31,235 nucleotides of DNA, taken from the IMG/VR virus record IMGVR_UViG_3300008735_000064, positions 1 through 31,235 of that record; one strand, 5' to 3'. The position numbers were made by a program, and so were the translations under genes. The notes under the pieces are model-generated. The model saw nothing but the letters and a program-made list of their open reading frames with translations. It did no database searches and had not been told where the DNA came from. The DNA is from a virus. Each line of letters opens with the position of its first letter. Within the stretch, counting starts at the first letter, position 1. This document shows, in pieces, positions 3,496 through 31,235 of the stretch.

Positions 3496-4227
3496 CTAAT
3501 GCCATTTTCTCATCATCCGTTTACGGAAGTAGTCAATGATTCGTGACTTGAGATTACGGTTGCCGTAGAATTTTTGGATGCGTTCAACGTCATGGTTATG
3601 AAGCACCACTCTGCCGTTATAATACGGATACATAATACAGTCTTTGTGCTGTTGGCAATGTTTTAAACCAATAGCGTGACCACACTCATGTAGCAGGGTA
3701 TGAATTATGTTATAAGTTCTAAGTTTGGTTTTTGTGTGAGGAGGATATTTATCAGGATAAATTTTATGTGCGTTTACCGGTTTTCCGTTTGTCGACCATA
3801 AGACAGAATCGTTGAACGTAATGTCACCACCTATCTGTGTGCCATTTGGAAAGTAGGCATATGCCAAAGTACTAGGTCTTTCCTTGAACATTTTATCATC
3901 ATCTTTCTTTAAAAATCTCATTTCAATATCAGCTCTTATGCCTTTATCTCTTATCCTCTTAAATCTAATATCATTCGTCCTGAATCCCCACTGTCTTAAT
4001 GCTATTGCCAGTGCAGTATCTTCAAAGGTATTTTCCGGAAAATTAACAGATGTGTTAACTACCTTATATGTTACAAAACCCCAGTCCTTAGCAATACCAT
4101 TTCTGTCAACGTGTTTTTTAGGATCCCATTTATGTTTCCACTCGTCTATTTCTGCATAAGAGAAATCCAAATTAATATTAGACTCAAAATCAACTTCATT
4201 GGAATCAATTATACAAAAATTGTCCAT
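3496..4227 (-). CDS. Matrixin-like (M10, metzincin) zinc metalloprotease
   Basis: A 243-aa protein whose residues about 45-205 align by eye with the catalytic domain of matrix metalloproteases. The zinc site HECGHAIGLKH is at 180-190 (His180, His184, His190; base Glu181). The Met-turn IMYP follows at 198-201, then an Asp/Ile/Tyr-Gly helix end as in matrixins. Upstream, a Gly-Gly-Asp then Asp-x-x-Leu-Trp segment matches the structural metal loop and the edge strand before the active-site helix. There is no signal peptide and no cysteine-switch prodomain. The C-terminal 30 residues are very basic. It may cut host surface-layer or internal proteins, during entry or release. It sits directly upstream of the 3426 unit and after two small membrane-protein genes. 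Confidence 0.85.
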   Translation of the reverse strand: MDNFCIIDSNEVDFESNINLDFSYAEIDEWKHKWDPKKHVDRNGIAKDWGFVTYKVVNTSVNFPENTFEDTALAIALRQWGFRTNDIRFKRIRDKGIRADIEMRFLKKDDDKMFKERPSTLAYAYFPNGTQIGGDITFNDSVLWSTNGKPVNAHKIYPDKYPPHTKTKLRTYNIIHTLLHECGHAIGLKHCQQHKDCIMYPYYNGRVVLHNHDVERIQKFYGNRNLKSRIIDYFRKRMMRKWH

Positions 4228-5201: not shown

Positions 5202-7178
5202 ATGGGTAGATGGGATCAATTAAAGGGTTTTATAACTGGTAGAGGAACGATAGACAAAGCTTTTACCGATACTACGACAAGACCAAGCATTGCACAGCCA
5301 TATATGGCTACTGATACAGGTGCAAAGTTACCAATTTTTCCATTTCCACTGATAATGATATACGAATTGGCAGATAATATCGATGCATTGAGAATTCCTA
5401 TTGAGACATTAAATCGTGAAATATTCAAAAATGGCTTCGAAATTGTCGAAAAATGGAAGTTTAAATGCTCAGATTGTGGAAAAGAGTTCCAATATGAGCC
5501 ACTTGTAGACAACCTCCCAGATGAGCAACCTTTCCAATCTAACGAAGATAATCAGGACAACTCATTGCCAAAAACGAAGCGAAGAACCACAAATAAAGCG
5601 AATAAAAAAGCACTTGTAGACGATGTGATGTGTGATAGTTGTGGAAGTATAAAACTATTAAGACCAATACCACAGAATAGAAAGATACTTGAGGGTTTGT
5701 TAAACGAATCAATAAATTCAAACGAACAAACCTTAGAAGACGTAGCAAGACAACTTGAAAGAGATTTAGACGTTGCAGACAATGCATATCTATTGGTGTT
5801 AAAGAATTATTGGGTAGATGATAATACAGGTTTAATCTCAGAAAAGAAAACAGAGATAAAAGAAATGTTAAGAATTGATCCTCCACAAGTTGCAATGATA
5901 GCAGACAGTGATGGAAGAATAGGATATGATGATAAAAGAAATGAAATATTTGTTTGCCCTAGATTTGAACATAGGGATAAACGACTTACATCAAATACAT
6001 GTGATCAGTGTGGAGCTCAGGCATTAAAGGCAATAATGGAAGTGAACTCTGTTTATTCTATAGGTATTCCACAACCAAAAAGAGTTATTTATGGAGAGGG
6101 AGAAGTTATTTGGAAAGCAGGTAAGTATAAGCCAGGATTAATTTATGGTTATTCACCGATATATTCCGTCTGGTCAAAGGCAATGTCCTTGACACATATG
6201 GATGAATACATTAGAAAATATTTTGATAAGATGAGACCCCCAAGGGGTATGTTAGTAATTGCCTCGCGTAATTACGAAACATTCAGAAAATCTTGGGATA
6301 TGCTGGAGCAGAAAGCTACAGAAGATCCATATATGATACACCCACTTTTGGTTGAAAGTGAAAAGGGTGGAAAGAATATGGCACAATGGATTGACTTTAC
6401 TGGTTCACTTAAAGAATTAGAGTTTATGGCACTTCGTAAGGAGTTAAGACAGATAATTGGAGCAATTTACGGTGTTTTACCACTTTATTATGGAGAAATG
6501 CCTAGTGGATGGTCACAAGAGGGCTTACAAGTTACGATTACAAACAGGGCAGTAACATGGGGTCAGGACATACTTCGTAAGTCATTTTACACTAAAATAG
6601 CAAGTTTGTTAGGTGTAGACGACTGGGAAATACGATTAAAGGCTGGAGAAGAGACAGACAAGTTAAGAGAACTACAAACACAGTCAACCGAAATACAAAA
6701 TATGGCAACAATGCAAGGAATGGGATTTGAAGTAAAGAGAACACATACAGGGGAGTTCAAGGTATCAAAAGATCCTATAATAAACCCAATGATGATGGCA
6801 CAGGAAGCAGAAGTAGAAAAACCACAGAAGAAAGGAAGAGGTAATGCAATGGGTCAGAAGAAAGAGAATAAACAAAGTTTTCAAGGAGAGCCAAAGAGGG
6901 GAAGACCATCTGATCCCGGAGGGACAAACCAGGGAGCACCTGCAAGTGGTACAGGTACAACAATGAGTAAGAAGACTTATCTTAAAGGTATAACACCTGA
7001 TAATTTTGAAGTTGTTAAGAACATATTACAAACATCAGTTGACTTTGGATGGAAGAAAACAAAGACGGTTAATGAATTACGCAAGTCGGCACATATGACA
7101 GTCAGAGATGCAAGAGAAGTATTTGATAACGAATTAGGCTCAACAAGGAGGTGGGAGAATGGAGAAGAAGAAAATTAA
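5202..7178 (+). CDS. Portal protein with zinc-ribbon insertions
   Basis: The 658-aa product has the layout of a tailed-virus portal, the dodecameric ring through which DNA enters the capsid. It has an N-terminal alpha/beta domain, an aromatic Y-G-Y-S-P-I stem region near residue 315, a long helical part around 340-440 and the segment Y-G-V-L-P-L-Y-Y-G-E-M before the C-terminal crown. Two Cys sets are inserted: Cys89/Cys92 with Cys144/Cys147 (a zinc ribbon split by a charged loop), and Cys252 with Cys267/Cys270 plus a nearby His. Residues about 535-590 are low-complexity, and the last 50 residues form a separate charged domain. First large gene of the virion block, with its own TATA-like box 25.5 bases ahead. 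Confidence 0.85.
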   Translation: MGRWDQLKGFITGRGTIDKAFTDTTTRPSIAQPYMATDTGAKLPIFPFPLIMIYELADNIDALRIPIETLNREIFKNGFEIVEKWKFKCSDCGKEFQYEPLVDNLPDEQPFQSNEDNQDNSLPKTKRRTTNKANKKALVDDVMCDSCGSIKLLRPIPQNRKILEGLLNESINSNEQTLEDVARQLERDLDVADNAYLLVLKNYWVDDNTGLISEKKTEIKEMLRIDPPQVAMIADSDGRIGYDDKRNEIFVCPRFEHRDKRLTSNTCDQCGAQALKAIMEVNSVYSIGIPQPKRVIYGEGEVIWKAGKYKPGLIYGYSPIYSVWSKAMSLTHMDEYIRKYFDKMRPPRGMLVIASRNYETFRKSWDMLEQKATEDPYMIHPLLVESEKGGKNMAQWIDFTGSLKELEFMALRKELRQIIGAIYGVLPLYYGEMPSGWSQEGLQVTITNRAVTWGQDILRKSFYTKIASLLGVDDWEIRLKAGEETDKLRELQTQSTEIQNMATMQGMGFEVKRTHTGEFKVSKDPIINPMMMAQEAEVEKPQKKGRGNAMGQKKENKQSFQGEPKRGRPSDPGGTNQGAPASGTGTTMSKKTYLKGITPDNFEVVKNILQTSVDFGWKKTKTVNELRKSAHMTVRDAREVFDNELGSTRRWENGEEEN

Positions 7179-9491: not shown

Positions 9492-11372
9492 ATGGGAGAA
9501 GCAGTATTCTTCAGAAACCTTACCACGAAAGGATTGACAGCAGTTAATAGTGGAGAAAGGTATTTTGAGGGTTATCTTACAGTACAGGTAAAGGACAAGC
9601 AGGGAGAAGTCACAATAGTAGATGAATTGATGAAAGTGTTACCTGTTTGGATAGACAGGGGAGCTCCAATATCCGACACTCATAGTAACAGAATAATAGG
9701 AAAAGGAATAAACTATTCAAAAGTGGAATACAGAGATAAGGATGGAGAAGTATATCCTGCAATAAAGGTTACAGGTAAGATACATAAGAATTATGAATTA
9801 GACAATGATATTTGGCAAAAAATCAAATCAGGTGAATATAAGGGATTAAGTTTCGGTGGAGCAACAAAATCAGATAGAGAACCAATGAGAATGAAAGACG
9901 GTTCCATAGCATATAGTTTAAAGGATTTAGAACATTATGAGGTCGCAGTATGCAGAGATCCAGCAGTACCACTTGCACTTATTACAGAATATAACACATT
10001 AGCGAAAGCAGCAGTAGATGGAGTTGATTTAGGAGATGGTAGAATGTTGATTAAATGTGATAAGTTTGGTTGCTTTGTTGATAAGAATAACAAGGAAGCA
10101 GGGCTTAAAGCACCAGAAGCGAGAAACGAAGCATTGGTTTATGACGATAAGACACATGATCAACCAAGTGAAACACCATTAGAAAACCAAGCAAAAATAC
10201 AAAAGGTTTCAGATGAAATGGCTGGAACTTTACTAGATGAAGATAGAGCAGTTCAATCAGGTAAGGTAAGACCACCAACACCAAAACACTTAGTAAATCC
10301 AAAGGATAAAGGAGAAGATTGTGAAGACGGAAGTTGTGATAAGAAAGACGGATTTCCAGCTATGACATATCAAGAACATGAGTTTGATACTGAGGGCGTT
10401 TGCACAAATTGTGGTAAAAAGTATAAGAAAGGTGTGGTAGAGGGATTTCACCCACCAAAAGATTCAAAGAAAGCAGGACATGACAAGCCAGAAAAATGTG
10501 AGTTTTGTGGTGCAGCACAAAGAGATGCAACAATCATGGTAAAGAATCCAAAAGACCCCACTGCATCTGGGTTTGACAAGCAAAGAATGGATCAGTTTGA
10601 AACACATCGATCTCACCATACCAAGAAAGGACAAGATTGGTCAAACGCAGACGGAGATAGACATGGTATGTATAACCAAGACACAGACGAGGGTGGTATG
10701 GGTAAAAAACATACAGGACCAAAAGGATGTAAGTGTGGAGATCCAAAGTGTAAAGATCCTAAATGTAAGAAAAAACCTAAGAGAGAAGTTGGAACAGGTC
10801 ATGGAGCAGAACAGAATGATGCAGGAGAAGTCGGCTGGTCAGGTAGTGGTTCACCATATCCTAAGAAGAAGAAAGCAATAATAACAAACATATTATCACG
10901 ATTAAAATCATTAAATTTCATGTTAAAAGGTTATAGTGATGAGTTTAAAGAAGATAAAGAAAATTGGGAACAACAACAAGTGCCAAGTAGACGAAAAAGA
11001 AAAAGAAGAGGAAAGGATGCAGCAACCATTACAAACATACTATCACGATTAAAATCATTAGATTTTCTACTAAGAAAAGAACCATTGTTATCTAATTCAT
11101 GGGAAGCTGTACATATTGATCAAAAAGAACAAGCAGAAAAAAAGAAGAAAAAGAGAAAGAAGAAAGGTGGATTGGGAGGACTTCATGGTGCATTAGACTA
11201 TCGTGATCTTGATGAAAAACTTGATGCAGCAAAGAAAAAGAAGAAAAAAAAATCATTTTTAATGAGAGTTAAAGACGGAGAATTCGGTGGCATGAATACA
11301 GGAGAAGTAGAATGGACAGAACCAAGAGATACTGCTAATAGTAGAATGAAACGTGGTAAAGATGTCGCTTGA
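9492..11372 (+). CDS. HK97-type prohead protease (U35) with long zinc- and Lys-rich extension
   Basis: Residues 1-170 match prohead serine proteases, which cut scaffold and capsid proteins during maturation. They include G-Y-L-T-V then K-D-K-Q-G-E-V, the catalytic His64 in ISDTHSNRIIGKG, Ser120 in GLSFGG, and the closing E-V-A-V-C-R-D-P-A. The remaining 450 residues are unusual. They contain a CxxC pair joined to a second pair (CTNC, CEFC), a CKCGDPKCKDPKCKK cluster, several Lys runs, and a repeated helix TNILSRLKSL (starting near residues 462 and 515). The extension may act as a built-in scaffold that brings the protease into the prohead, like delta domains, though much longer. Leaderless promoter ahead; overlaps the next gene. 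Confidence 0.85.
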   Translation: MGEAVFFRNLTTKGLTAVNSGERYFEGYLTVQVKDKQGEVTIVDELMKVLPVWIDRGAPISDTHSNRIIGKGINYSKVEYRDKDGEVYPAIKVTGKIHKNYELDNDIWQKIKSGEYKGLSFGGATKSDREPMRMKDGSIAYSLKDLEHYEVAVCRDPAVPLALITEYNTLAKAAVDGVDLGDGRMLIKCDKFGCFVDKNNKEAGLKAPEARNEALVYDDKTHDQPSETPLENQAKIQKVSDEMAGTLLDEDRAVQSGKVRPPTPKHLVNPKDKGEDCEDGSCDKKDGFPAMTYQEHEFDTEGVCTNCGKKYKKGVVEGFHPPKDSKKAGHDKPEKCEFCGAAQRDATIMVKNPKDPTASGFDKQRMDQFETHRSHHTKKGQDWSNADGDRHGMYNQDTDEGGMGKKHTGPKGCKCGDPKCKDPKCKKKPKREVGTGHGAEQNDAGEVGWSGSGSPYPKKKKAIITNILSRLKSLNFMLKGYSDEFKEDKENWEQQQVPSRRKRKRRGKDAATITNILSRLKSLDFLLRKEPLLSNSWEAVHIDQKEQAEKKKKKRKKKGGLGGLHGALDYRDLDEKLDAAKKKKKKKSFLMRVKDGEFGGMNTGEVEWTEPRDTANSRMKRGKDVA

Positions 11373-14300
11373 TTATGAATATCTATTTAATCAGATAGAT
11401 AAAGCAAAGAAGAAGAAACCAAAGAAAGGTTATATACCCTGGAATAGCCCAGAGTCGAAAAAACTACAAGAGAAATTCTTAAAGGAGCAAAAAGATAGAG
11501 AAACATATACACAGGGAACTGGATTTACTACTGCTGATGCAAAGGATAAGCTTGTAAAAGAGAAACCAATAAGTGAAAAACTTACAAGAAGAGCAGGTAG
11601 AAAACGTGGTAGAGGAAAATATACAACAAGAACAGAACATGATACTAGAGGTAAGGAGGTAGGTACAACAATTACAGGTACACCTAGAAAAGTAGAGTCA
11701 ACTGCTGAAATAAGAATACAGGATCTTGATGAAACTGGTACAAAGAAGAGAGTGATTGATAAAAAACCTGTAAGAGGATTAGATAGGAAAGGAACAAAAA
11801 GAAATTATGAAAAGGAAAAGCAAAGAAGACAAGATAAAAAAGACGCAAAAGATAAACAAGAACAGCAGTTAAAAGAAGGAATTGATGGAGTTCCTGGATC
11901 CCATAGTACACTTTCAGGTTCTACTGCTGATAGTAGGTCAAATCCAAAAGGTAGGGTTGTAAACATTAAGATACCAAAGGCACGGGGAAAGAGACAGTTT
12001 CATAGCAAACAACCGGAAACAAAGACAGTAACTAATCTACAACCAAAAGATATAAAACCAGATAAACCAGTATCAAGAAAGACACAACTAAGACGAGAAG
12101 AGGGTGCAAGTAGTTCAAAGAAGATTGGAGTTGATTTGGATGAGATGAAAGAAAGGATGCAGACAGCTAATAGAAAATTACAAGAAGAAAGAAATACAGA
12201 AAGTGTAACTAGTTATGGAGAATTCAGAAAGCTAGACCAAGAAGGTCACAACGCTAGATATAAGAAATACATTGCAGATAGAAAAGCAGCAGCAGATAAA
12301 CGAGAAGCAGATAAAAAAGAGAGAGAATCAATAGATCCTAAAACAGGTGAAAAAAAAGGACCTAAAGTAAAACTAACGAAACCAAGAAAAAGTAGAGCGA
12401 AACCAGAAAAACCAACAACTACTGATACAACGGAAGAAGTATCAGATGATCCAGAAGATTATGAAGATTCAAATGATGATGATGATTATGAATATGGAAA
12501 AGATTATAAAAATCTAGGTAAATCATTTTACAAAGCATGGTTAGAAAAGAAAAGAGATTGGGATGCAGAAGATAAAGAATCCAAAGAGATGAATAGACCA
12601 ATTAAATGTACTAGTTGTGGTAAAACCAAACCTAGAATATTATATGAAAATCCATTAGGAAGACCTTTTGGAATATGTGATGAGTGTGCATCACCTCCTG
12701 CTCCGGGAGAACCAGACCCAAAATGGATTACAGATATGCAGAACGATGATGATACTGATGAAAATCCAAAAACATCAAAGAAATCATTTTACAAAGCATG
12801 GTTAGAGAAGAAAGATGATTGGGATAAAGATGAAAAAAAGCCCGATTTGGCTCAGTACGACAGAGGAGGAGGAAAGTTTTGTACAAACTGTGGTAGAAAA
12901 TCTAAATATCCATTATGGAATCCGAATGATAAAAAATCTGATCCAAGATTTAGTAGAGGAAAAGATGAGGGTCTTTGTGATAATTGTTTTGATGAAAGAA
13001 TGGATAATTCAGAGGGTAAGGACGAGTTTGATGATAAGACTAGAAAAGAAAATAAATCATTTTACAAATCATGGTTAGAGAAGAAAGAAGAAACTGACTC
13101 ACAAAAGTTTGAGAGATGGGTAAAGGAACACCCACAACCAGAACACCAAGAAAAAAAACAGACACAGATAGAATTGGCTTTGTTATTACGACAGATTAAT
13201 GAAGATGCAAAGAAAAAGAAAAAGGAAAGACAAGAAAGGAAAGAAAGATATGATGAAGAAACAGCAGCAACGATGAGAGAGATAGAAGCAGATATTTCTC
13301 TTCCAAAAGTTGAGGTTGATGGTAGGAACTCTGCTACCTATAAACACCCATCAGCGTTTGGAATATTGCAAGGAGGTAAAGAAACTAAAATGCATGACGA
13401 CCACATTAGACATAGAAGAGAAGCTCAGGGTACTATATCACAAGAAAATGCAGAAACATACAAATCATGGTTAAAAGAGAAAGATGCAGTTTCAGGTAAA
13501 CAGAGTCCAACAAGAAAACCGACTAATAATTACGTATATACAGATGATGACGAATCTTTACCTATGACAAGGCAACACCCAAAGGTAGCCATACCTCGAA
13601 AACATAGTCCAGACAACTTTCAATATGCTTGGGAACACACAGAGGGCAATCCTGGATACATGGAAACTATAGACAACTCAGGTAGAGTTAGTGAAGAGCG
13701 TAACGCAACTCACGAACGACATAATTTCTTGGATCGTAAGGAGAGAGAGGAAGCAAAAGCAAAAGAACCTAAATATACAATCTCTTACAGTTGGAACAAA
13801 GAAACAGATAAAGAAAGTGCAGAGAGAAGAGCAAGAGAATGGAACGAGGAAAGGAAAAAAGCAGAAGAAGACTGTCCATTCTGTGATGATGAGAAAAACC
13901 TTAGTAGAGAAGAACGTTGGAAAGACGAAGACAACATGGATGAATATACTGCACTGATGTTAGCTGAACATAAAAAAGATCCAGATGCTTTTCATGCAAA
14001 TATTGGTTCTGTAACACCAGAAGAGCAAAAAAAAATAAACAGTGCAGCAATGGAATCTGGTAAAGTTGATGACGAGAAATTAAAAGCAGAGATTCAAGAT
14101 GATGATTGGAGAAAACCAACTGCAACTAAACCACATGAATTTGATCCAAATAGGCATGGTTCTCATGTAAGAAATATTATGTATCCAGAATCAAAAGACG
14201 AATGTTCTGTATGTGGAAAAACTGTTGAGGAGCATAAAGGAGCAAAAATTGAAAAACCCACACGAAAACCACATAAATTACAAAATTACAACCCAGATAG

Positions 14301-14604
14301 TGGCAAGTATGATTATGAAGCAAAAGCAGAAGAAGGTATAGGAGGCATGAATATGGGCAGTCAAAGAGGTCTAGGACATGATGCAGGTTATAAGCAAGAT
14401 CCTGGTCAATCAGCACAGATAACAGAAGTTATAGAAGAAGAAACAAAAAGTGCCTATCAGACCGATTCACAAGACGAAAGTACTGATGTAGAGCCTAATA
14501 AACAACAAATACCAGCATCAAAGCCAGGTACAGATGTATTCAAATTATATAAGAAAGCCTTAATAATCAAGTATAAGAATATATATAAACCCCATAATCT
14601 TTAA
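11362..14604 (+). CDS. Giant charged repeat protein with zinc ribbons (1080 aa), probable internal head/scaffold protein
   Basis: Nearly the whole chain is Lys, Glu, Asp, Arg and Asn, with low complexity and likely disorder. A helix KSFYKxWLEKK occurs at residues 387, 474 and 565 and, degenerate, near 700. The first two copies are followed by a four-Cys ribbon (Cys416/419 with 439/442; Cys507/510 with 539/542). Further CxxC pairs lie near residues 840 and 950. It sits between the protease and the capsid gene, where scaffolds and proteins ejected with DNA are encoded, and it overlaps the protease frame. The ATG 11362 is preferred to GTG 11353; neither has a good Shine-Dalgarno site. No known family; the structural role is inferred from position and repeats. 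Confidence 0.72.
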   Translation: MSLDYEYLFNQIDKAKKKKPKKGYIPWNSPESKKLQEKFLKEQKDRETYTQGTGFTTADAKDKLVKEKPISEKLTRRAGRKRGRGKYTTRTEHDTRGKEVGTTITGTPRKVESTAEIRIQDLDETGTKKRVIDKKPVRGLDRKGTKRNYEKEKQRRQDKKDAKDKQEQQLKEGIDGVPGSHSTLSGSTADSRSNPKGRVVNIKIPKARGKRQFHSKQPETKTVTNLQPKDIKPDKPVSRKTQLRREEGASSSKKIGVDLDEMKERMQTANRKLQEERNTESVTSYGEFRKLDQEGHNARYKKYIADRKAAADKREADKKERESIDPKTGEKKGPKVKLTKPRKSRAKPEKPTTTDTTEEVSDDPEDYEDSNDDDDYEYGKDYKNLGKSFYKAWLEKKRDWDAEDKESKEMNRPIKCTSCGKTKPRILYENPLGRPFGICDECASPPAPGEPDPKWITDMQNDDDTDENPKTSKKSFYKAWLEKKDDWDKDEKKPDLAQYDRGGGKFCTNCGRKSKYPLWNPNDKKSDPRFSRGKDEGLCDNCFDERMDNSEGKDEFDDKTRKENKSFYKSWLEKKEETDSQKFERWVKEHPQPEHQEKKQTQIELALLLRQINEDAKKKKKERQERKERYDEETAATMREIEADISLPKVEVDGRNSATYKHPSAFGILQGGKETKMHDDHIRHRREAQGTISQENAETYKSWLKEKDAVSGKQSPTRKPTNNYVYTDDDESLPMTRQHPKVAIPRKHSPDNFQYAWEHTEGNPGYMETIDNSGRVSEERNATHERHNFLDRKEREEAKAKEPKYTISYSWNKETDKESAERRAREWNEERKKAEEDCPFCDDEKNLSREERWKDEDNMDEYTALMLAEHKKDPDAFHANIGSVTPEEQKKINSAAMESGKVDDEKLKAEIQDDDWRKPTATKPHEFDPNRHGSHVRNIMYPESKDECSVCGKTVEEHKGAKIEKPTRKPHKLQNYNPDSGKYDYEAKAEEGIGGMNMGSQRGLGHDAGYKQDPGQSAQITEVIEEETKSAYQTDSQDESTDVEPNKQQIPASKPGTDVFKLYKKALIIKYKNIYKPHNL
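12520..13473 (+). repeat. Coding repeats for the SFYKxWLEKK helix
   Basis: Near-identical copies begin at 12520, 12781 and 13054, with a diverged copy at about 13453. The first three are 261 and 273 bases apart, so whole modules (helix plus ribbon) were duplicated in frame. Confidence 0.75.
14582..14589 (+). promoter_or_regulatory. TATA box ahead of the scaffold-candidate and capsid genes
   Basis: TATATAAA, inside the end of the 1080-aa gene, centred 30.5 bases before ATG 14616. A TTTAAATA at 14600-14607 is only 12.5 bases from the ATG and too close to serve it. Confidence 0.42.
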
Positions 14605-14615
14605 ATAGATTAACT

Positions 14616-15242
14616 ATGGCAGACGAAGAACAAGTTGATCAAGTAGAGATCACTAAATCTGACGAAAGCGAACAAGCTTCTTATGAAAGTACAGTTGCAA
14701 AGAGTATTGATACTCTAGCAGATGTAGTTCAATCCATAGCCGAATCACAGCAAGGTGTAGAAAAAGCTATTACCGAAATGCATCAAAGAGTCAAAGCACT
14801 CGAAACACCCAGCGATTTACCATTGAGTCCGAAAGGAACTCAAGGTGGAGATGATGTTGGTGCTAAAGTGACTGCTCCAAATGACCCCTACCCAGTAGGA
14901 GATCAAGTTGGACTGGATTCTGACAGGAGATCTAAAAATCCCCCAAAGAAAGACCCAGCAGGACTCAAAATGCAGGAAAAACCTGTGCATAAGGCTAGTG
15001 AGGAAGAAGATATTGTTGAGAGTTCACAACCAGAAATGGTTATGAAATCACAACATGAGTTCTCTACTGAGACACCAAGACCTGGTAGTGCATTAGAAAC
15101 AGTTGACAAATCCTTTTCAAAGGATTATAGTCCAATACTGAAAGATGCACGATCTGAAGGTTATGAAGGTCTCAGCAAAGTAGCACAAAACATCCTAAGT
15201 GGTAAATATTACAAACCCACACCAGAGGAGGTAGGTCTATAA
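14616..15242 (+). CDS. Scaffold or capsid-accessory protein candidate (208 aa)
   Basis: An acidic, mostly disordered protein with one clear coiled coil at residues about 28-66 (hydrophobic heptads through V-K-A-L-E-T). It has a Pro/Lys-rich middle and a C-terminal helix (residues about 180-200) ending in K-Y-Y-K-P. Small size, coiled coil and position directly before the capsid gene match scaffolding proteins. The prohead protease could remove it during maturation. Its stop shares a base with the capsid ATG (TAATG). Confidence 0.6.
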   Translation: MADEEQVDQVEITKSDESEQASYESTVAKSIDTLADVVQSIAESQQGVEKAITEMHQRVKALETPSDLPLSPKGTQGGDDVGAKVTAPNDPYPVGDQVGLDSDRRSKNPPKKDPAGLKMQEKPVHKASEEEDIVESSQPEMVMKSQHEFSTETPRPGSALETVDKSFSKDYSPILKDARSEGYEGLSKVAQNILSGKYYKPTPEEVGL

Positions 15243-16462
15243 TGGTACAAATTAAAACCATTGACGAACTAGAAGCACTCTATTATGGATATAATAGAAA
15301 CCTATTGAGAAAGGCAGATGCACCAATCACAACTTCAACAGTTGGCGTTTTCAACGCTATCTATGGAGCATATGCATGGGCTCAGCTCAACTTAGAGGCA
15401 AACGCTTTTGGTATCTTACCAAAATATCCTTGGGACAAATCAGGATGGAGGGTCATAACTGCAAAGCCAGTTCTGAATACAACTAATTCTAACACAGTAT
15501 TAGGTGGTACATCAGAGGGTGGCTTAATTGCACAAACCATCAAACCAACACTTCAAGAAATTGATGTTAGACCAAAGACAGCACAACTGCCTTTCTCAGC
15601 ATCAGAGGTAATGGAATGGTTAGCAACACATAGTCGTGACGATATTTGGGGTGGACTAGGTTCACTCAGATTGTACATGGCTGTGCAGCACAAAGAATTC
15701 CTCAACAGAATGTTACTCGCAGATGTCGAAAAGCAAGCAGCAGATGCAAGTGGAGCTTGGACCGGAACAGCAGACTTTGAGTCTCTAGACCGAATTGTAT
15801 CAACCAGTGCTGAAGAAGCAGTAACTGGTGGTTCACAAACAGGCAACTACGATCCATGGGCTGCAAACGCAACCATCGACAGAGATAGTGGTACATCTTT
15901 CGATTGTACTGTTGAATCTGCTTCAGGTACTATTGGAACAAATGGTGTCCTTACTGACGATACACTAAGAGCTTTCTTACGAAAGATTAGAGTCGCAGCA
16001 GGTAAAGACCCAAACGTATTCCTAGGATCTCACGAAGTTTACTCCGAGATACAAGGTCTATACATGCCTTCAGTCCGTATTCCAAACCCATACGGTGAAA
16101 GCTTAGTACAGATTGATGTAAACGGTATCCAATCATTTAAGGGTACTGGAGTAGGTATTCATGTAGACTCTATATATGGAATTCCATTCATTCCAAGCAA
16201 GGATGCACCAAGCAATGCCTCCGACTCATCAGAGATCGGAAGATTATTTGCATTTGATACATCTGATGCAGAGGGATATGGTTATCCAAGAATCGGAATA
16301 CAAATTGCAATTCCAACAGAGTATTATGAAGCAACCAGACGTTCACCAGGTTACCCATTCGTCAACAATGCATTTGTTGAGAAAGGAGTATTCAGGACCA
16401 TGGGTGAAACAGTATGTCGTCACTTCAGATCACAAGGAAAGATTAGAGATATTAAACTCTAG
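15242..16462 (+). CDS. Major capsid protein (HK97-fold candidate)
   Basis: This 406-aa protein follows the protease and scaffold genes in the classic order and has the composition of a capsid protein: an amphipathic N-arm, many Gly/Ser/Thr, no membrane segment. Segments read as the family's elements: a Q-I-D-V-R-P-K-T-A E-loop-like stretch near residue 110, the spine-helix region around 120-160, and an R-I-P-N-P-Y-G-E-S stretch before the A-domain. A Shine-Dalgarno-like GGAGGT (15226-15231) lies 10 bases before the ATG. There is no large N-terminal delta domain, so scaffolding must come from another protein. A T-run terminator follows. HK97 fold is inferred. Confidence 0.82.
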   Translation: MVQIKTIDELEALYYGYNRNLLRKADAPITTSTVGVFNAIYGAYAWAQLNLEANAFGILPKYPWDKSGWRVITAKPVLNTTNSNTVLGGTSEGGLIAQTIKPTLQEIDVRPKTAQLPFSASEVMEWLATHSRDDIWGGLGSLRLYMAVQHKEFLNRMLLADVEKQAADASGAWTGTADFESLDRIVSTSAEEAVTGGSQTGNYDPWAANATIDRDSGTSFDCTVESASGTIGTNGVLTDDTLRAFLRKIRVAAGKDPNVFLGSHEVYSEIQGLYMPSVRIPNPYGESLVQIDVNGIQSFKGTGVGIHVDSIYGIPFIPSKDAPSNASDSSEIGRLFAFDTSDAEGYGYPRIGIQIAIPTEYYEATRRSPGYPFVNNAFVEKGVFRTMGETVCRHFRSQGKIRDIKL

Positions 16463-19279: not shown

Positions 19280-20266
19280 ATGGCGACAATCCGAACTGGT
19301 GCTAGTGCGTATCTTAAGTACGAATATGAGACATCATATGGCACTGGAGGAACACCAAATAAGAAATTTGGACTACAGGACAGACTGACCAATTGGTCAT
19401 TAACACATAATAGGATAGATATGCCACAATTAGACCAGACAACTATTGCCAATTTTGCTTATGGACAGCAAAGTGGTAGTTTGTCGGTGGGATGTGTATT
19501 AAGCAACCCTTGGATTTTTGAGTCAGTATTTGGACCATCTACACCAGGCTCAGCAACAGATGGAGTATATCCACACACATTTGGTACAACAGCAGGAAAT
19601 AAGACCATGAATACCCTAGTTGTTGAGGTCGGATATGACGGAGATTCTGCCGATATTGTAAGAACTATGAGAGGCTGTGTTGTTAACTCATTGGGTATTT
19701 CAACCTCAATAGGAGCAACAGTTGACTTGAGTGTTGATATGACATACGGAAAAGAGGATGCACCAAACACAACATTAGGAACAGCACCAACAGAACCAAC
19801 AGAGGCATTTCCATATACATTCGCTCATGGAGTGATAAAGGTAGGTGGAAATACACTTGCACAGGTTCAAGATGTAGATATAACATTTGCACAAAACCCA
19901 TCATTGCTTTATGGAATAGGAAACAACCAGGCAGTAAGTTCATACAGACAGGTATTTGACATGACAGGAAGATTTAGAGCAGCATTCTTAAATAAGAACT
20001 TATTAGAGGGTACATTAGCACAAATAGCGAAAAACACTTCAACAACATATGAAGAAACAATCGGTGGTTCACCAGAATTTGAATTAACATTCCAAAGCAC
20101 TGCATCATCCACTCAGAACGAAATAAAGATAACAGGAACAGGTCTAGCACCAACAGATCTTAATATTTCAGGAATAGAACCAGTTGAGCCAATATTTGAA
20201 GAAATAAACTGGAGAATAAAATCAGCTACCATAGTGGCAAAGAACACACAGTCGGTAGCAGAGTAA
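19280..20266 (+). CDS. Major tail tube protein
   Basis: A 328-aa, beta-rich, Thr/Gly/Ala-rich protein opening with T-G-A-S-A-Y-L-K-Y and Y-E-T-S-Y-G-T, a start seen in many siphovirus tail-tube subunits. It has alternating strands, no Cys pairs and no membrane segment. It is larger than minimal tube proteins (about 150-250 aa), so an extra surface domain is likely. Own leaderless promoter, as expected for an abundant protein, and the tail chaperone and tape measure follow. Confidence 0.8.
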   Translation: MATIRTGASAYLKYEYETSYGTGGTPNKKFGLQDRLTNWSLTHNRIDMPQLDQTTIANFAYGQQSGSLSVGCVLSNPWIFESVFGPSTPGSATDGVYPHTFGTTAGNKTMNTLVVEVGYDGDSADIVRTMRGCVVNSLGISTSIGATVDLSVDMTYGKEDAPNTTLGTAPTEPTEAFPYTFAHGVIKVGGNTLAQVQDVDITFAQNPSLLYGIGNNQAVSSYRQVFDMTGRFRAAFLNKNLLEGTLAQIAKNTSTTYEETIGGSPEFELTFQSTASSTQNEIKITGTGLAPTDLNISGIEPVEPIFEEINWRIKSATIVAKNTQSVAE

Positions 20267-20299: not shown

Positions 20300-20698
20300 A
20301 TGGCTATTAAGACCTTTGAGATAGACTATGAGGGGGAAAAACACTCCATAGATTATGAAGATGATCTTACTTTTGGTGAATTAGAAAGTGTGGTAAACCA
20401 AAGCGTAGACCTAGCAGATGTCACAAAACCTAAAGTAGATCTTCCAAGATATAGAATAAATATCCTTACAACTGTAATAAGAAAAGCACCTTTTCCAATA
20501 AAAGATGTAGGTGCTATCAGAAACCTAAAGGCTAAAGTAGTAAAACAGATCATCTCGGAGGTGATGAAAGACTACCCTTTAATGCAATTTTTGGAGGACT
20601 GGATGGTAACATTCGTAGGCACACAGGAAGCAACGAATTTACATACGGAGTCTATTACTTCCTTGCCGAAAGTTTCGGATGGGACAAGCACCAAGTAG
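20300..20698 (+). CDS. Tail assembly chaperone, short form (G-like)
   Basis: A 132-aa, mostly helical protein after a short beta start, located between tail tube and tape measure, exactly where siphoviruses encode the chaperone that coats the tape measure. It is leaderless. The last 30 residues look non-conserved (Thr/Ser-rich, ending S-D-G-T-S-T-K). They are replaced by a more protein-like sequence if the ribosome slips into the -1 frame. Confidence 0.74.
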   Translation: MAIKTFEIDYEGEKHSIDYEDDLTFGELESVVNQSVDLADVTKPKVDLPRYRINILTTVIRKAPFPIKDVGAIRNLKAKVVKQIISEVMKDYPLMQFLEDWMVTFVGTQEATNLHTESITSLPKVSDGTSTK

Positions 20699-20853
20699 AC
20701 ATATTACCGTCAAAGTATATCAAAGGTTTGTTATGGATGAATAAGAAACAGGCTGATGAATTAAAGAAAGAAGAGTTTAAGGGATCCTCAAGGATAGGAA
20801 ACGCTGGAATACCTCGTAATGTAGGCAGGCAATTTAAGAAAACTTTTAAGTAG
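20300..20853 (+). CDS. Tail assembly chaperone, -1 frameshift long form (G-T-like)
   Basis: In the -1 frame, sequence is open from 20536 to the TAG at 20851-20853, crossing the short form's stop. It encodes Y-Y-F-L-A-E-S-F-G-W-D-K followed by helices and a basic tail. F-G-W after a helix is typical of the T part of siphovirus G-T chaperones. No ATG, GTG or TTG lies in this frame before the conserved-looking part, which argues for slippage rather than a separate gene. No textbook slippery heptamer is present; G-AAT-TTA at 20635-20641 is closest. The exact slip site is unknown. Confidence 0.62.
20844..20851 (+). promoter_or_regulatory. TATA-like box of the tape measure gene
   Basis: TTTTAAGT, overlapping the end of the chaperone long form, centred 25.5 bases before ATG 20873. 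Confidence 0.5.
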
Positions 20854-20872: not shown

Positions 20873-22984
20873 ATGGTAGAAACCACAGAAAAAGAATTTA
20901 CTAAGGCAATACAGGAGTTATTCAAGGAGTGGGAAAAAACCAAGGATAAAGAAACACTTAGAATTATTAATTCTTTGCAAAAATCAAAGAGGTCACTCCA
21001 AAGTAGTAAAATGCAAGATCGACTACAACAACAGGTTCGTGGTAACATAGAAAGAAGGGCTGAGCTTCAAAAAGGTACTAGTGCACAATTTCCAAATATT
21101 GCACAGATAATGACTGGTGGGGCACCAAGCCCTGTTAGTTTAATGGGACGAATGCAACGACAGGCATCAAAACCGTTTAAGCGTGTTTGGGATTATCAAC
21201 AATCTGGAGAATCGATGAAGGAATTAGGAGCTAAGTGGATAAAAGGTGGACGAAAGGACGATGAGATGAGGAATGAATTAGAAAAAATGGGAGCAGAGCA
21301 CTCAGGAAAAGGAAAGAGAGCTGAAGCAGGATTCGGTAAGAACCTAATGGGAAAGAAGATGCAAGGCATGATAGGCAAGGTTGGAAAGTTTATGGAATCA
21401 AGCAAAGGACAGGGATTGATGGCTGGTGGAATGATGGGAGCTTCAATACTTACAATGATTATAAAGAAAGCAATGGAGGCTTCTCCAATGTTACAACAAA
21501 TGTTAAAAATAATGAATGTCGCTATGACATTATTCTTAAGACCAATAGGTGACTTTATAGGTGGTATGTTAAAGCCAATTATGTTATTTTTCCTAAGAGA
21601 AGTGGCAGTTCCAATGTTAAGAAAAGGAAAGGATATGATAAAAATAGGAGAACAGTTTGGAAAAGGAGCATTAGGATTCATGTTAAAACCAATAGAAACT
21701 ATACGAGAGGCATTGAATCCTTTTTCATCATCATTTGATGGAATAAAAGAATGGATGACTGAACAGAAATTAAGGGGTCTTGCAGCCGAAATGGAGGGTA
21801 GGGAATTACTAACTGTACTTAATATTATAAAGAATAAAGCAGCAGAAGATAAAACTGTTGGGGCAGATCCATTCACAGGTGCTCCGGGATATACAACAAC
21901 TCATGCAAAAGATTATAATGATCTTAAGAATTTGTTTGGTGGTCCAGAGGGTTTTCTGACACAGTTTGAGAATATAATGTATCAAGGTCAAGCACATGGA
22001 GGACGTATGTCATATGAATATGCCAGTGGATACTTTGATAATATGAAAGATGGAGGAGGTGTAGCAGCAGGAATGGGTGGTGGAACAGGATTTATGGCAG
22101 AAGTAGCACCAGTATTTACAGAAATATCAACAGAGGGAAGTAAAGTTACCACAGCATTTGTAAGTCTTAGTGAATCAGCAAACTGGGTAGCACAACAATA
22201 TAGATTAAAAGCTATGGAGGGTGGAATGACTGATGAACAAATAGCAGCATCTAAGGCTCTCTTTGATGAGTTTAGAAAATCCTCCCTGGCTGGAATGATG
22301 GGAAATGAACAAACATTGCTTTGGAATGAATTCCAAGAAAAACTTCAGACAATATTATATCCAGTAGAGAAAGCAGAGAAAGAGTTATCTGGCACTGTGA
22401 CTCATATCGCAAGAGGATCAAGAACAATAGAAGAATTATTTAAACAAATTGAAGGAGATTTCTTTGCAAACAGAAACACCAGTGAACATATAACAACAGA
22501 TTTTATAGGTATGGCAGATTTAACCTTACAAGGTTATAAAAAGGTACAGGCGTTACTCGCACAATTAGCAGCAGCCGGTAATAGATATTATAATTCTAGA
22601 AATATAATGGTAGGCAGAGGTGGAGGATTAGCTACCTGGACAAGAGTAGGAGAGGGAAAGTGGAAAAGTCCACAGAATTTACCCTTGTCAAGCCAAGCAG
22701 CAGCATATTATAAAAATTTAGGTGTTAATGTTCGTCAATTTGCACACGGTGGTGTTATAGGTGAGCATATATGGGGTATAGGAGAAAGTGGAAAAGCATA
22801 TGAGTTTGGAGAAAAGGGAAGTGAATTAGTAACCCCACTTAATAAGGCTAAAGAGGTTGGTAATACTATTGCAAACATTACTGTTAACATAGATAAGGTA
22901 GCAAGTGATGTAGATTTGGAACAAATAAAACCCATTGTTGAAAGGGCATTACATGAAGTACACTCAAGGAGGGGAATGATATAG
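20873..22984 (+). CDS. Tape measure protein
   Basis: This 703-aa protein has a charged, helical N-terminal third. Long hydrophobic Met/Gly/Ile-rich segments follow at about residues 180-255, then helices. Near residue 625 comes a C-terminal F-A-H-G-G-V-I-G-E-H block, followed by F-G-E-K-G-S-E-L-V-T-P, a signature seen at the end of many tape measure proteins. It fixes tail length and is ejected ahead of the DNA. At about 0.15 nm per residue the tail would be near 105 nm (estimate from the general rule). Long and short tail genes around it support the call. Confidence 0.86.
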   Translation: MVETTEKEFTKAIQELFKEWEKTKDKETLRIINSLQKSKRSLQSSKMQDRLQQQVRGNIERRAELQKGTSAQFPNIAQIMTGGAPSPVSLMGRMQRQASKPFKRVWDYQQSGESMKELGAKWIKGGRKDDEMRNELEKMGAEHSGKGKRAEAGFGKNLMGKKMQGMIGKVGKFMESSKGQGLMAGGMMGASILTMIIKKAMEASPMLQQMLKIMNVAMTLFLRPIGDFIGGMLKPIMLFFLREVAVPMLRKGKDMIKIGEQFGKGALGFMLKPIETIREALNPFSSSFDGIKEWMTEQKLRGLAAEMEGRELLTVLNIIKNKAAEDKTVGADPFTGAPGYTTTHAKDYNDLKNLFGGPEGFLTQFENIMYQGQAHGGRMSYEYASGYFDNMKDGGGVAAGMGGGTGFMAEVAPVFTEISTEGSKVTTAFVSLSESANWVAQQYRLKAMEGGMTDEQIAASKALFDEFRKSSLAGMMGNEQTLLWNEFQEKLQTILYPVEKAEKELSGTVTHIARGSRTIEELFKQIEGDFFANRNTSEHITTDFIGMADLTLQGYKKVQALLAQLAAAGNRYYNSRNIMVGRGGGLATWTRVGEGKWKSPQNLPLSSQAAAYYKNLGVNVRQFAHGGVIGEHIWGIGESGKAYEFGEKGSELVTPLNKAKEVGNTIANITVNIDKVASDVDLEQIKPIVERALHEVHSRRGMI
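22967..22972 (+). promoter_or_regulatory. Shine-Dalgarno site that points to an AUA start
   Basis: AGGAGG lies eight bases before ATA 22981. The nearby ATG at 22976 is only three bases away and belongs to the tape measure frame, where it gives Met-Ile-stop. Comparable sites precede the genes at 7159 (7 bases) and 15242 (about 10 bases). Confidence 0.5.
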
Positions 22985-23491: not shown

Positions 23492-25492
23492 ATGGCTAGA
23501 GCAAAATTATTTATTAACGGAACTGCAAAAACTATAATCAATTCTATCCTGCAAAAACAGGGAGAACGTTTAATAGACTCGTTAAATTTAATAGTTGCTG
23601 CCAACGTTGGTGTGGAAGTAAATGATAAGGTACTATACATTCAGGATTTTCTTGATGTGTATAATCTGAGTGCAGTATATAACTTCCAAAACACTGTAAA
23701 AGACGAGAGTGGCAACTCAAATCATGGAACTGCAACTGATATTCTGTATGGATCTGATAGTTGGGATGGATACTCTGGAATTTTTAACGGAACTTCAAGT
23801 AAGGTGACAATACCAGATGATAACAGTATAGATCTTTCTGGTGAATTTCATATTTATATTTGGGCAAAATGGACTGTCACGTCTTCTGGTTCCCTGTTTT
23901 CAAGAAGTCCGTTTAAGATAAATGTAAATGCTACCACAGCCGGTGATGTTAAAGTTATTCTAAACACTGATACAATCACCAGTTCTACTGCTGGGTATAA
24001 TGATGACAATTGGCATTTAATAGAGATAAAAAGAGACGCTGATAATCTTGTAACTTTAAGCATAGATGACACATCAAAGGGAACTGTCACTTCGTCAGTA
24101 GATTTGTCAAACACAACCTCGTATGAAATAGGTCATGAGGCAACTGCTGGTTATTTTGCTGGAGAAATCTCAAGATTAAGGGTTTATAAGGGAGATACGT
24201 TATCAAGTGAAGATTCTACAAAAATATATGAAAAAAGAAATCCGAGAACCACATTAAAATTTGGTGGATATGTAACAAAAATAGAGAATATTTTATCACA
24301 AAAGAATATAATAGCACATAGTTTTGGAAAAATTCTTGGTGAAACAGAAGTAAGGTCAACAGTTTATGATGACAGGACACCAGAATATATAGTAGAAAAT
24401 TTAATTACAACCAACACATCGTTTTCTTTTAATTCAGGTGGATTTACAACTGGTCTTACAATGACAAGATATACAGCAGATGGAAAACTTATAGATATTA
24501 TAAGGGACCTTTCTACATTTACAAATTACACGTTTTTCACTACGGGTTTAGAGGAATTTTTCTTTGTTCCAAAGAGTTTTACTGAGACAACAATTACACT
24601 TACTCATGGAACTGATGGTGTAATAAACAAGAGTGGTTTTGATGACAGTGAAATAGTGAACGACCTTACCGTGTTGGGTGAAAACAAAAAATATGAAACA
24701 ACAGAACTTTTTAGTGGGAATGGAACAACAAAAGAGTTCATATTAGTACGTAATGCAGTGTCAATAAAGGTATCAGTTGGAGGAAGTGAGAAAAAAGGCG
24801 AAGAGGATTATGAGTTAGATTCATTAGGAAGAACTATAACATTTGAAACAGCTCCAGCTTCAGGTACAGATAATATAAGCGTTGAGTACGAGTTTGAACT
24901 TCCGTTGTATTTAAGAGGACAGAGGCAGTCAAGTATAACTACATATGGTGTTCATGCAAAAAGAGTAAATATGCCTTGGATAAATAACAGAACTGACGGT
25001 ATAAGATTTTTAAACTCTTATTTAAACAGGTATAAGGATATAACAGAGAAGATAAAGATAGAATTAGGGTATATGTTTAATGGAGTAGAAGAAGGTGATA
25101 TAATACAGGTAATAAATACTTTAAAAGACATAAATGGTGATTTTATGGTTAAAAGTATAGAATGGGGATACCCATCAATGACAACAACTATAGATGTTGG
25201 AGAATATTACTTTGGATATTTTGAGTCCGATAAACAAATAGTTCAAAAACTTCATGATTTAGAAGGTGTTTTAACAACATCAAAATCACTGATAGATTTC
25301 GAGTCTCCAGAAGATGTTTTAATATTGACAGAAAATGTATATCAGACTGTTATAGAGAATTTTACAGAAAGTTTAAGTATTACAGAGTCAGACAATATAT
25401 ATGATTTACAGGTTGCTACATGGGGTTCATCTAATTATAGTTCAAGGGGGGTTGGAGTAACTCCACAAGGAAAGGTGTATACAAGTGGTTAA
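23492..25492 (+). CDS. Tail hub protein with inserted LamG-like domain
   Basis: 666 aa. Residues about 1-58 and 250-560 read as a baseplate-hub/Tal-like protein (F-G-G-Y-V-T-K-I-E-N after a strand, later Y-L-R-G-Q-R-Q and M-V-K-S-I-E-W-G-Y). Between them, residues about 60-245 form a LamG/concanavalin-like sugar-binding domain: Y-N-F-Q-N, D-E-S-G-N-S-N-H-G, F-N-G-T-S-S-K-V and a closing R-L-R-V-Y. The insertion would display a lectin from the tail tip. The C-terminal 100 residues are Ser/Thr/Glu-rich. The ATG is one base past the previous stop. Order after tape measure and Dit candidate agrees. Confidence 0.75.
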   Translation: MARAKLFINGTAKTIINSILQKQGERLIDSLNLIVAANVGVEVNDKVLYIQDFLDVYNLSAVYNFQNTVKDESGNSNHGTATDILYGSDSWDGYSGIFNGTSSKVTIPDDNSIDLSGEFHIYIWAKWTVTSSGSLFSRSPFKINVNATTAGDVKVILNTDTITSSTAGYNDDNWHLIEIKRDADNLVTLSIDDTSKGTVTSSVDLSNTTSYEIGHEATAGYFAGEISRLRVYKGDTLSSEDSTKIYEKRNPRTTLKFGGYVTKIENILSQKNIIAHSFGKILGETEVRSTVYDDRTPEYIVENLITTNTSFSFNSGGFTTGLTMTRYTADGKLIDIIRDLSTFTNYTFFTTGLEEFFFVPKSFTETTITLTHGTDGVINKSGFDDSEIVNDLTVLGENKKYETTELFSGNGTTKEFILVRNAVSIKVSVGGSEKKGEEDYELDSLGRTITFETAPASGTDNISVEYEFELPLYLRGQRQSSITTYGVHAKRVNMPWINNRTDGIRFLNSYLNRYKDITEKIKIELGYMFNGVEEGDIIQVINTLKDINGDFMVKSIEWGYPSMTTTIDVGEYYFGYFESDKQIVQKLHDLEGVLTTSKSLIDFESPEDVLILTENVYQTVIENFTESLSITESDNIYDLQVATWGSSNYSSRGVGVTPQGKVYTSG

Positions 25493-29085: not shown

Positions 29086-29096
29086 GTATTACCTAT
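29082..29096. repeat. Perfect inverted repeat across a gene start
   Basis: ATAGGTA-T-TACCTAT spans the stop of the 337-aa gene and the first two bases of the next ATG. As RNA it gives a five-pair stem with a five-base loop. Confidence 0.4.
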
Positions 29097-30555
29097 GGCA
29101 ATAACTTATCTTAGTGGAGAAAGGATTCAGGGAAGTAGTACAGGAGCAAAAACACCAACACTTTCTTTTGATTTATCTAGTGCTTCTGGTTGGACACAAT
29201 CAGGAAATAACAGTCATTCTGTTGATACAACAAACAGTCAAATAGATTGGGATGCTACAGCAGGTGGTCAAGCTCAACTTTATTATGATATTGGATCAGG
29301 AAATATTAGTGATACTGCGTGGGTTTTAAGATTCAAATTTACAACTACTGCATCTGCTTCAGGTTCAGGTAGTTCAACCCACTTTGGTATTGGTCTTACT
29401 AACTCAACAGCAGGTTATGGAACAAACCAAAACCATGTCACATTTACTGCATCAACAGGTAATTCAGGAAATCAGAAATACCAAACTTGTATCGGTGTAG
29501 ATGAATCAAACAATAACGATGGTCAATTTGTTGATACAAATAAAGATGCATTTAGTAGAACATACCCAGCTAATGAAACAGTTTGGATAGAGATGAAAAG
29601 AACATCAGCAACTTCCTTAACAACAACCATATACACAGATGAATTTGTAACGTCAGCAGAGTCTAGGACAAGATCATTACACGCCAATACAGGATCAAGT
29701 ATGAGGTATTTGATGTGTAGTGGTAGAGATCAAGGTGCTGATAATCTAGAGGGAACAATAGAAGATATAAAATTTTATAATAGTGTTACAAGTGCAATAA
29801 CAGATGAAAAAACAACAATAACAAACGTACCAACAGGTACAAGATTTGAAGAAATAGATACGAGAAAAATATTTAGATTTGGTGGTGCAAGTGATACTTT
29901 TGGTTCAACAGCAGATGCAGTAACAGTAGCAGGTGTAACATTATCTACAGCAGATAAAAAACTAGGAACAGGTAGTTTAGATTATGATGGTGCTAGTGGA
30001 ACAAAAATAAGATTGGGTGTGGTTCAAGCATTACCAGCAGGAACAGCAGATTACACATATGCATTTTGGGTTAAGTTTGATAATACAAGTGGTGATAGCC
30101 AAGTATTCAAGGCACAAGACGGTGTAGAAACTTACATAAATTCAGGCGATCTTAAATTTAAAACAAGTGGTGGTTACACTACATTAATTTCAAGTGTATC
30201 AACAGGCACATGGTATCATATTATAATTGAAAATTCAGGTGGAACTACCTATGGATATTATAACGGTGGTAATGTTCAAAGTGCATCATCAGCAACAATA
30301 GGTTCATCCAATCTTAACGAATGGTATATAGGTGGCAAAGATTCTGGTTCTGAAGCACATGATGGACATATTGATGATTTTGCTATTTGGCATAGGGCTT
30401 TAACAAGTGCAGAACGAACAGCATTATACAATAGTGGTAATGGTGCAGTAGCAACGTCAATAGATACTACTGGTTTAAAATATTATTTGAACTGTGATTC
30501 AATAGTTGGTAAAAATAATGCTTTTGCTTGGAAAGAAAGAGGTACGGCAGCATAA
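29095..30555 (+). CDS. LamG-domain tail fibre/receptor-binding protein (486 aa)
   Basis: It opens with the tag R-I-Q-G-S-S-T-G-A, shared with the next gene. Residues about 20-235 are a beta-sandwich domain. A linker T-R-F-E-E-I-D-T-R-K-I-F-R, frequent in marine phage fibres, leads to a LamG-like domain at about 270-475 (L-G-T-G-S-L-D-Y-D-G, Y-A-F-W-V-K-F, G-H-I-D-D-F-A-I-W-H-R-A-L). LamG domains bind glycans or proteins, so it probably recognises the host surface. No Shine-Dalgarno site; a small hairpin covers the start. Confidence 0.76.
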   Translation: MAITYLSGERIQGSSTGAKTPTLSFDLSSASGWTQSGNNSHSVDTTNSQIDWDATAGGQAQLYYDIGSGNISDTAWVLRFKFTTTASASGSGSSTHFGIGLTNSTAGYGTNQNHVTFTASTGNSGNQKYQTCIGVDESNNNDGQFVDTNKDAFSRTYPANETVWIEMKRTSATSLTTTIYTDEFVTSAESRTRSLHANTGSSMRYLMCSGRDQGADNLEGTIEDIKFYNSVTSAITDEKTTITNVPTGTRFEEIDTRKIFRFGGASDTFGSTADAVTVAGVTLSTADKKLGTGSLDYDGASGTKIRLGVVQALPAGTADYTYAFWVKFDNTSGDSQVFKAQDGVETYINSGDLKFKTSGGYTTLISSVSTGTWYHIIIENSGGTTYGYYNGGNVQSASSATIGSSNLNEWYIGGKDSGSEAHDGHIDDFAIWHRALTSAERTALYNSGNGAVATSIDTTGLKYYLNCDSIVGKNNAFAWKERGTAA

Positions 30556-30604
30556 TGGCAATTAAATATCTCGATGCTAAAAGGATTCAGGGAAGTAGTA
30601 CAGG
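29120..30604 (+). repeat. 25-bp direct repeat encoding the shared fibre N-terminus
   Basis: The same 25 bases occur at 29120-29144 and 30580-30604, encoding the R-I-Q-G-S-S-T-G tag of two neighbouring fibre genes. Only the two ends of the given interval are repeats. Confidence 0.8.
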
Positions 30605-31235
30605 TGCAAACACAACTGTTACAATAACAGATGCAGGTGGTGAAGAAGATGCAATTAGAAATGGTGATGTGACAATAGCTGGACAAAGGTTTCAAACAGG
30701 TCATACGTTAATTGGAAAAACAATAAAATCATTTACAGTTTATTTGAAAAAACAAGGATCACCAACAGGTAATTTAGAAGCAAAGATTATAAATTCTAGT
30801 AATACTGAAAAGGCAAGTTTTGGTACGTTAGATGTTTCTACATTAACTACTTCATTTGTCCAAAAAACATTTACTTTCGTGTCAGCTACAACTAATAACA
30901 TCATTGATGCAGATGATAGAATTTCACTTCATTACAGTGGTGGTAGCAGTGGTAATGCTACTCGTGTAGAATTGTGTAGTAGTTGTGATATTGATTATAC
31001 AAATGAGGGATATTACATAAGCAGTTGGGCAGAACGAACAGGTAGCATGAGAATGACAGTTACATACGGTTCGCCTGATAAAGCAACATTACTTACAGAA
31101 GTATATCCAGATGGATTTGGTTCTAGTGCAGATGGTACATTAACAGGCGTGACACTAAACGAATCAGTTGAAAAACTTGGTACAGGTTGCTTAGACTTTG
31201 CAGGTGGTGGGGGTGATGATCTTGAAACAGGTGCG
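30555..31235 (+). CDS. Second LamG-type fibre protein, partial (runs off the window)
   Basis: The ATG shares a base with the previous stop (TAATG), and 227 codons are open to the window end. The first 18 residues are nearly those of the upstream fibre gene. Residues about 20-175 form a different beta domain with a Cys-x-x-Cys pair (C-S-S-C). From about 190 the start of a LamG domain appears (L-G-T-G-C-L-D-F), matching the same point in the upstream gene. A tandem paralogue with a swapped middle domain. Confidence 0.75.
   Translation, partial: MAIKYLDAKRIQGSSTGANTTVTITDAGGEEDAIRNGDVTIAGQRFQTGHTLIGKTIKSFTVYLKKQGSPTGNLEAKIINSSNTEKASFGTLDVSTLTTSFVQKTFTFVSATTNNIIDADDRISLHYSGGSSGNATRVELCSSCDIDYTNEGYYISSWAERTGSMRMTVTYGSPDKATLLTEVYPDGFGSSADGTLTGVTLNESVEKLGTGCLDFAGGGGDDLETGA

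Follow-up and report, generated by a model that had tools for sequence, protein, structure and literature searches.

A predicted -1 frameshift at a conserved C_CCT_TTA heptamer in the tail assembly chaperone gene of an archaeal tailed virus

The tail assembly chaperone gene of an archaeal tailed virus very probably yields two proteins, G (132 aa) and GT (184 aa), by -1 programmed frameshifting at the heptamer C_CCU_UUA. The gene lies in IMG/VR record IMGVR_UViG_3300008735_000064, of which the whole stretch of 31,235 nucleotides was analysed (positions 1-31,235, hereafter the window). The reading is based on two conserved frames, on a heptamer that is conserved and in one clade relocated, on a predicted fold and on the gene order. 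A G/GT frameshift in an archaeal tailed virus had been proposed in the initial annotation and is well supported by the conservation of both frames, the gene order and the predicted fold. In the proposed mechanism, the majority of ribosomes would translate G. At C_CCU_UUA (20575-20581), a fraction would move back by one base: tRNA-Pro in the P-site would exchange its pairing with CCU for CCC, and tRNA-Leu in the A-site would exchange UUA for UUU. These ribosomes would continue in the -1 frame for 90 codons and produce GT. In analogy to phage lambda, G would coat the tape measure, T would recruit tail tube subunits, and the slip efficiency would set the G:GT ratio. We infer the frameshifting itself and the effect of a Shine-Dalgarno (SD)-like element, and take the slip rate, the tRNA steps and what G and GT do from lambda. 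The predicted event is of a known kind, a -1 frameshift in a tail chaperone gene, here at another heptamer that lies deeper inside the gene. A joined GT product would be the proper annotation for these genes.

Reading frames, gene order and fold

Gene G (20300-20698, + strand) is an open reading frame for a short tail assembly chaperone of 132 aa, read by normal translation and terminated by TAG at 20696-20698. The frame at -1 to G stays open over 20536-20853 and runs across the G stop with 105 codons plus a stop. The initial annotation had described this frame as open across the stop of the short form, with a T-like ending FLAESFGWD and without a start of its own before the conserved part. 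All of this was borne out: the ending is present, and ATG, GTG and TTG are absent ahead of the conserved part in the window. The two open frames overlap at 20536-20698 (+ strand), and positions 20582-20698 would be read in both. The T segment (20581-20853, + strand), supported by its openness and motif conservation, encodes 90 aa and would form the C-terminal part of the fusion. The predicted GT consists of 94 G residues, ending in KDYPL, and 90 residues of the -1 frame, starting with NAIFGG, to give 184 aa; the predicted junction sequence is KDYPLNAIFGGLDGNIR.

The gene directly upstream of G encodes a tail tube (major tail) protein (19280-20266, + strand; Pfam Phage_tube_2, 2.5e-20). It is homologous to gp121 of HCTV-1, which directly precedes the annotated joined chaperone genes of that virus. 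Directly downstream lies an open reading frame for a tape-measure-like protein of 703 aa (20873-22984, + strand), so assigned by position and length. It has no family match of its own; HCTV-1 and HVTV-1 carry the tape measure gene at the corresponding place. The structural model of G comprises a beta hairpin and helices (pLDDT 81). Foldseek searches in a viral structure library matched it to proteins annotated as tail assembly chaperones in Bacillus phages and in HHTV-2 (probability ~1.0, E 1e-3 to 1e-2). In the PDB, neither sequence nor fold searches with G yielded a match. Sequence libraries contributed very little: neither G nor T matched a Pfam family, and PHROGs matches to T were weak (2/28 members), the best (E 0.001) being to a chaperone family. 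The fold search with the T domain gave weak matches only, the best to a functionally uncharacterised protein of an archaeal virus.

Conservation of the second frame and of the slip site

To gather relatives, viral contigs were searched with G, the capsid protein and the tail tube protein as queries, without selection on the heptamer. This resulted in 92 distinct G sequences with identities to the window from 28% upward. Two further scans, following the exceptional sequence L043, enlarged the set to 104 G entries with 103 unique coding sequences. The second frame was located at -1 in all 58 relatives of the first set for which the offset was computed, and it extends 17-84 codons beyond the G stop in 92/92 sequences. 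All complete relatives keep it open; stops in this frame, set beforehand as the refuting observation, were looked for and found in none of them. The openness from the slip site to the G stop exceeds chance, because synonymous redraws leave an expected ~8 of 92 sequences open, and all 92 are. Past the G stop, the changes in T amount to 0.30, 0.25 and 0.46 at codon positions 1, 2 and 3, and this third-position excess points to purifying selection. Within G, third-position changes decrease from 0.41 upstream of the slip site to 0.25 in the overlap, the pattern expected of dual coding. These codon-position counts were used in place of pN/pS, which was saturated on T and uninformative. The relatives share the T motif YY..A..FGW.K..VD..P..YL.

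The initial annotation had missed a textbook slippery site. C_CCT_TTA (20575-20581, + strand) is in phase with G at Pro93-Leu94, lies inside the overlap and follows the X_XXY_YYZ pattern (X=C, Y=T, Z=A). It occurs in 91/92 sequences of the first set, with L043 as the sole exception. The distance from the heptamer to the G stop is 117 nt in the window and 57-153 nt in relatives. The Pro codon of the slip site is CCT in 92/92 sequences; another invariant Pro of G is encoded in the same sequences by CCA (44), CCT (33), CCC (8) and CCG (7). Given the codon frequencies in the adjacent tail tube genes (TAC 0.21, CCT 0.24, TTA 0.60), the heptamer is expected in ~3% of sequences.

In the enlarged set, 93/104 entries carry C_CCT_TTA at homologous Pro-Leu codons and 11/104 carry T_TTT_TTA. 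The 11 carriers, L043 among them, form a single clade with 100/100 support in the tree. Their T_TTT_TTA is placed exactly 12 nt downstream of the usual site and is kept in all members. At the old site, the Pro-Leu codons, fixed in the other relatives, vary freely in this clade and read CCT CTA, CAA TTA, CCA CTA, CCC TTA, CCA TTG, CCG TTG or CCC CTA. Judged from these codons, the constraint has shifted along with the heptamer. The relocation represents a clean evolutionary experiment, with a moved site and a moved codon constraint, and it strongly supports the identification of the heptamers as slip sites. In three sequences of the clade, TTTTTTA is the very point from which the -1 frame is open.

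A shift at the non-standard G_AAT_TTA (20635-20641, + strand), the candidate of the initial annotation 60 nt downstream of C_CCT_TTA, is highly unlikely. This site is in phase and within the overlap, but conservation refutes it: it is in phase in only 2/92 relatives, and the closest ones have GAGTTCA at its position. Re-pairing from AAT to GAA in the P-site would be poor, and a canonical, invariant heptamer is available upstream. The sequence A_TTT_TTG (20587-20593) was also considered as slip site and rejected, its P-site re-pairing being imperfect and its sequence variable. Synthesis of T as a separate protein by internal or coupled initiation, without fusion, has a slightly larger but still very small probability. 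An ATG, GTG or TTG in the T frame six codons (three in one) past the slip site is present in 37/58 relatives. However, the window and 19 others of the 58 have no such start before the motif, and separate initiation leaves the invariant heptamer and its relocation unexplained. Moreover, in the clades with a -1 frame opening at the heptamer, the opening is located exactly where the shift needs it.

Two further readings have a negligible probability. A single contig could contain an indel, so that the two frames might reflect an assembly error or a recent gene-splitting mutation. The relatives already refute this, as the same two-frame layout is found in 104 relatives from many assemblies, and an identical copy of the locus exists in another contig. 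The extra product could also come from an RNA polymerase that slips on a homopolymer, in place of ribosomal slippage: the TTTTTTA of one clade contains a six-base run, and the window contains TTTTT at 20588-20592. But CCCTTTA, invariant in 93/104 entries, offers runs of three bases only, which are too short for efficient polymerase slippage. Frameshifting by the ribosome at C_CCT_TTA remains the preferred explanation.

Possible stimulators and known frameshift systems

An internal SD-like element, GGAGGTGAT (20557-20565, + strand), is a possible stimulator of the shift at C_CCU_UUA. SD stimulators of prokaryotic frameshift sites are placed upstream in the same way. The element is complementary to the anti-SD over 9 nt and ends 9 nt ahead of the heptamer, with 13 nt between GGAGG and the heptamer. 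Seven members of the window's clade have the 9-nt match, and synonymous redraws rarely or never reach it. Matches of at least 5 nt occur in 59% of the 92 sequences; a strong element is confined to the window's clade, and other clades lack it. SD-like leaders also precede some open reading frames of the window, at 7159 and 15242 (capsid gene). The position of GGAGGTGAT resembles that of prokaryotic SD stimulators (PMC8211752), and the element may stimulate the shift in the window's clade. A conserved nested structure downstream of the heptamer was not found in five clades, where single-sequence and alignment folds were near background.

The tail-chaperone frameshift is conserved in tailed phages, including lambda G/GT (Xu, Hendrix and Duda 2004, as cited in PMC5009743). 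Like lambda G/GT, the gene described here is flanked by genes for the tail tube and for a tape-measure-like protein, has a -1 site of the type X_XXY_YYZ and is predicted to give a short and a long product with a common N terminus. Sequence similarity to lambda G/GT was not detected. The heptamer is C_CCT_TTA, unlike G_GGA_AAG in lambda, and the shift is placed 117 nt before the G stop, which results in a long dual-coded stretch.

For archaeal viruses, -1 frameshifts have been predicted in the chaperone genes of HVTV-1, HCTV-1, HCTV-2 and HCTV-5 (PMC5009743, PMC8211752). These haloarchaeal siphoviruses (records compared: KC292029 and KC117377) share with the window an archaeal host, the gene order and the predicted -1 shift. 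The capsid proteins of HCTV-1 and HVTV-1 are homologous to that of the window, as is the tail tube protein in HCTV-1. Their annotated joined chaperones carry G_GGA_AAC and G_GGA_AAG at 30 nt from the G stop, in contrast to 117 nt in the window. A -1 frameshift has also been predicted for the chaperone pair of Hardycor1 (PMC7911831), which differs by its heptamer, G_GGA_AAT, and its haloarchaeal host. In HF1-like viruses, a +1 frameshift is predicted in the chaperone genes (PMC7230728). The heptamer CCCUUUA has been proposed as -1 site for CP/RdRp of Giardiavirus, in a disputed model (PMC8230311). Giardiavirus shares this heptamer with the window, but this RNA virus is unrelated, and a pseudoknot has been proposed downstream of its site.

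Few archaeal cases of -1 frameshifting are reported in the literature searched, and only fucA is given there as demonstrated (PMC8211752). Because the chaperone slip site is well defined and conserved, archaeal frameshifting becomes directly testable. The predicted G/GT frameshift is hereby extended from haloarchaeal viruses to a broad marine archaeal virus group. On balance, we favour the view that a large group of viruses of marine, probably ammonia-oxidising archaea uses a C_CCU_UUA -1 shift without conserved downstream structure, perhaps driven by an internal SD, and that its site moved once by 12 nt. If true, a thaumarchaeal ribosome would here make a -1 shift, and the literature searched contained no report of such a case.

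Host, capsid and other genes of the window

The capsid protein of the window is related to those of haloarchaeal and methanogen-associated tailed viruses, and an archaeal host is well supported. AmoC is encoded on two related contigs bearing C_CCT_TTA (L276 and L277). One of the two AmoC proteins, read over its entire length, is short and scores far below the bacterial AmoC cut-off. The amoC of L277 (1495-2058) is located a few hundred bases past the capsid gene; in L276, the matched amoC stretch has an in-frame TGA. Viruses of marine Thaumarchaeota with amoC are among those cited in PMC8651126, which assigns such viruses to a single capsid clade together with magroviruses and HVTV-1-like viruses. 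We infer a thaumarchaeal host for the window virus. Provirus scans of genome contigs found none.

The major capsid protein (15242-16462) is ~88-100% identical among the loci kept, the best 80 of 340. In the same best 80 of 340 loci, the tail tube and G proteins drop to 30-60% identity. This uneven conservation of capsid and tail could be due to capsid gene exchange or to strong constraint.

A tail protein at 23492-25492 shows a weak match to Laminin G domains that narrowly misses the Pfam cut-off (E 3e-4), and perhaps binds to the host surface. The adjoining open reading frames at 29095-30555 and 30528-31235 have similar starts, MAITYLSGERIQGSSTGA and MAIKYLDAKRIQGSSTGA, and are probably duplicated tail-end proteins. 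On the - strand, a predicted protein (3496-4227) contains the zinc-metalloprotease motif HECGHAIGLKHC and is matrixin-like by eye. A long, charged open reading frame (11353-14604) harbors repeated KSFYK.WLEKK units and several CxxC pairs resembling zinc ribbons.
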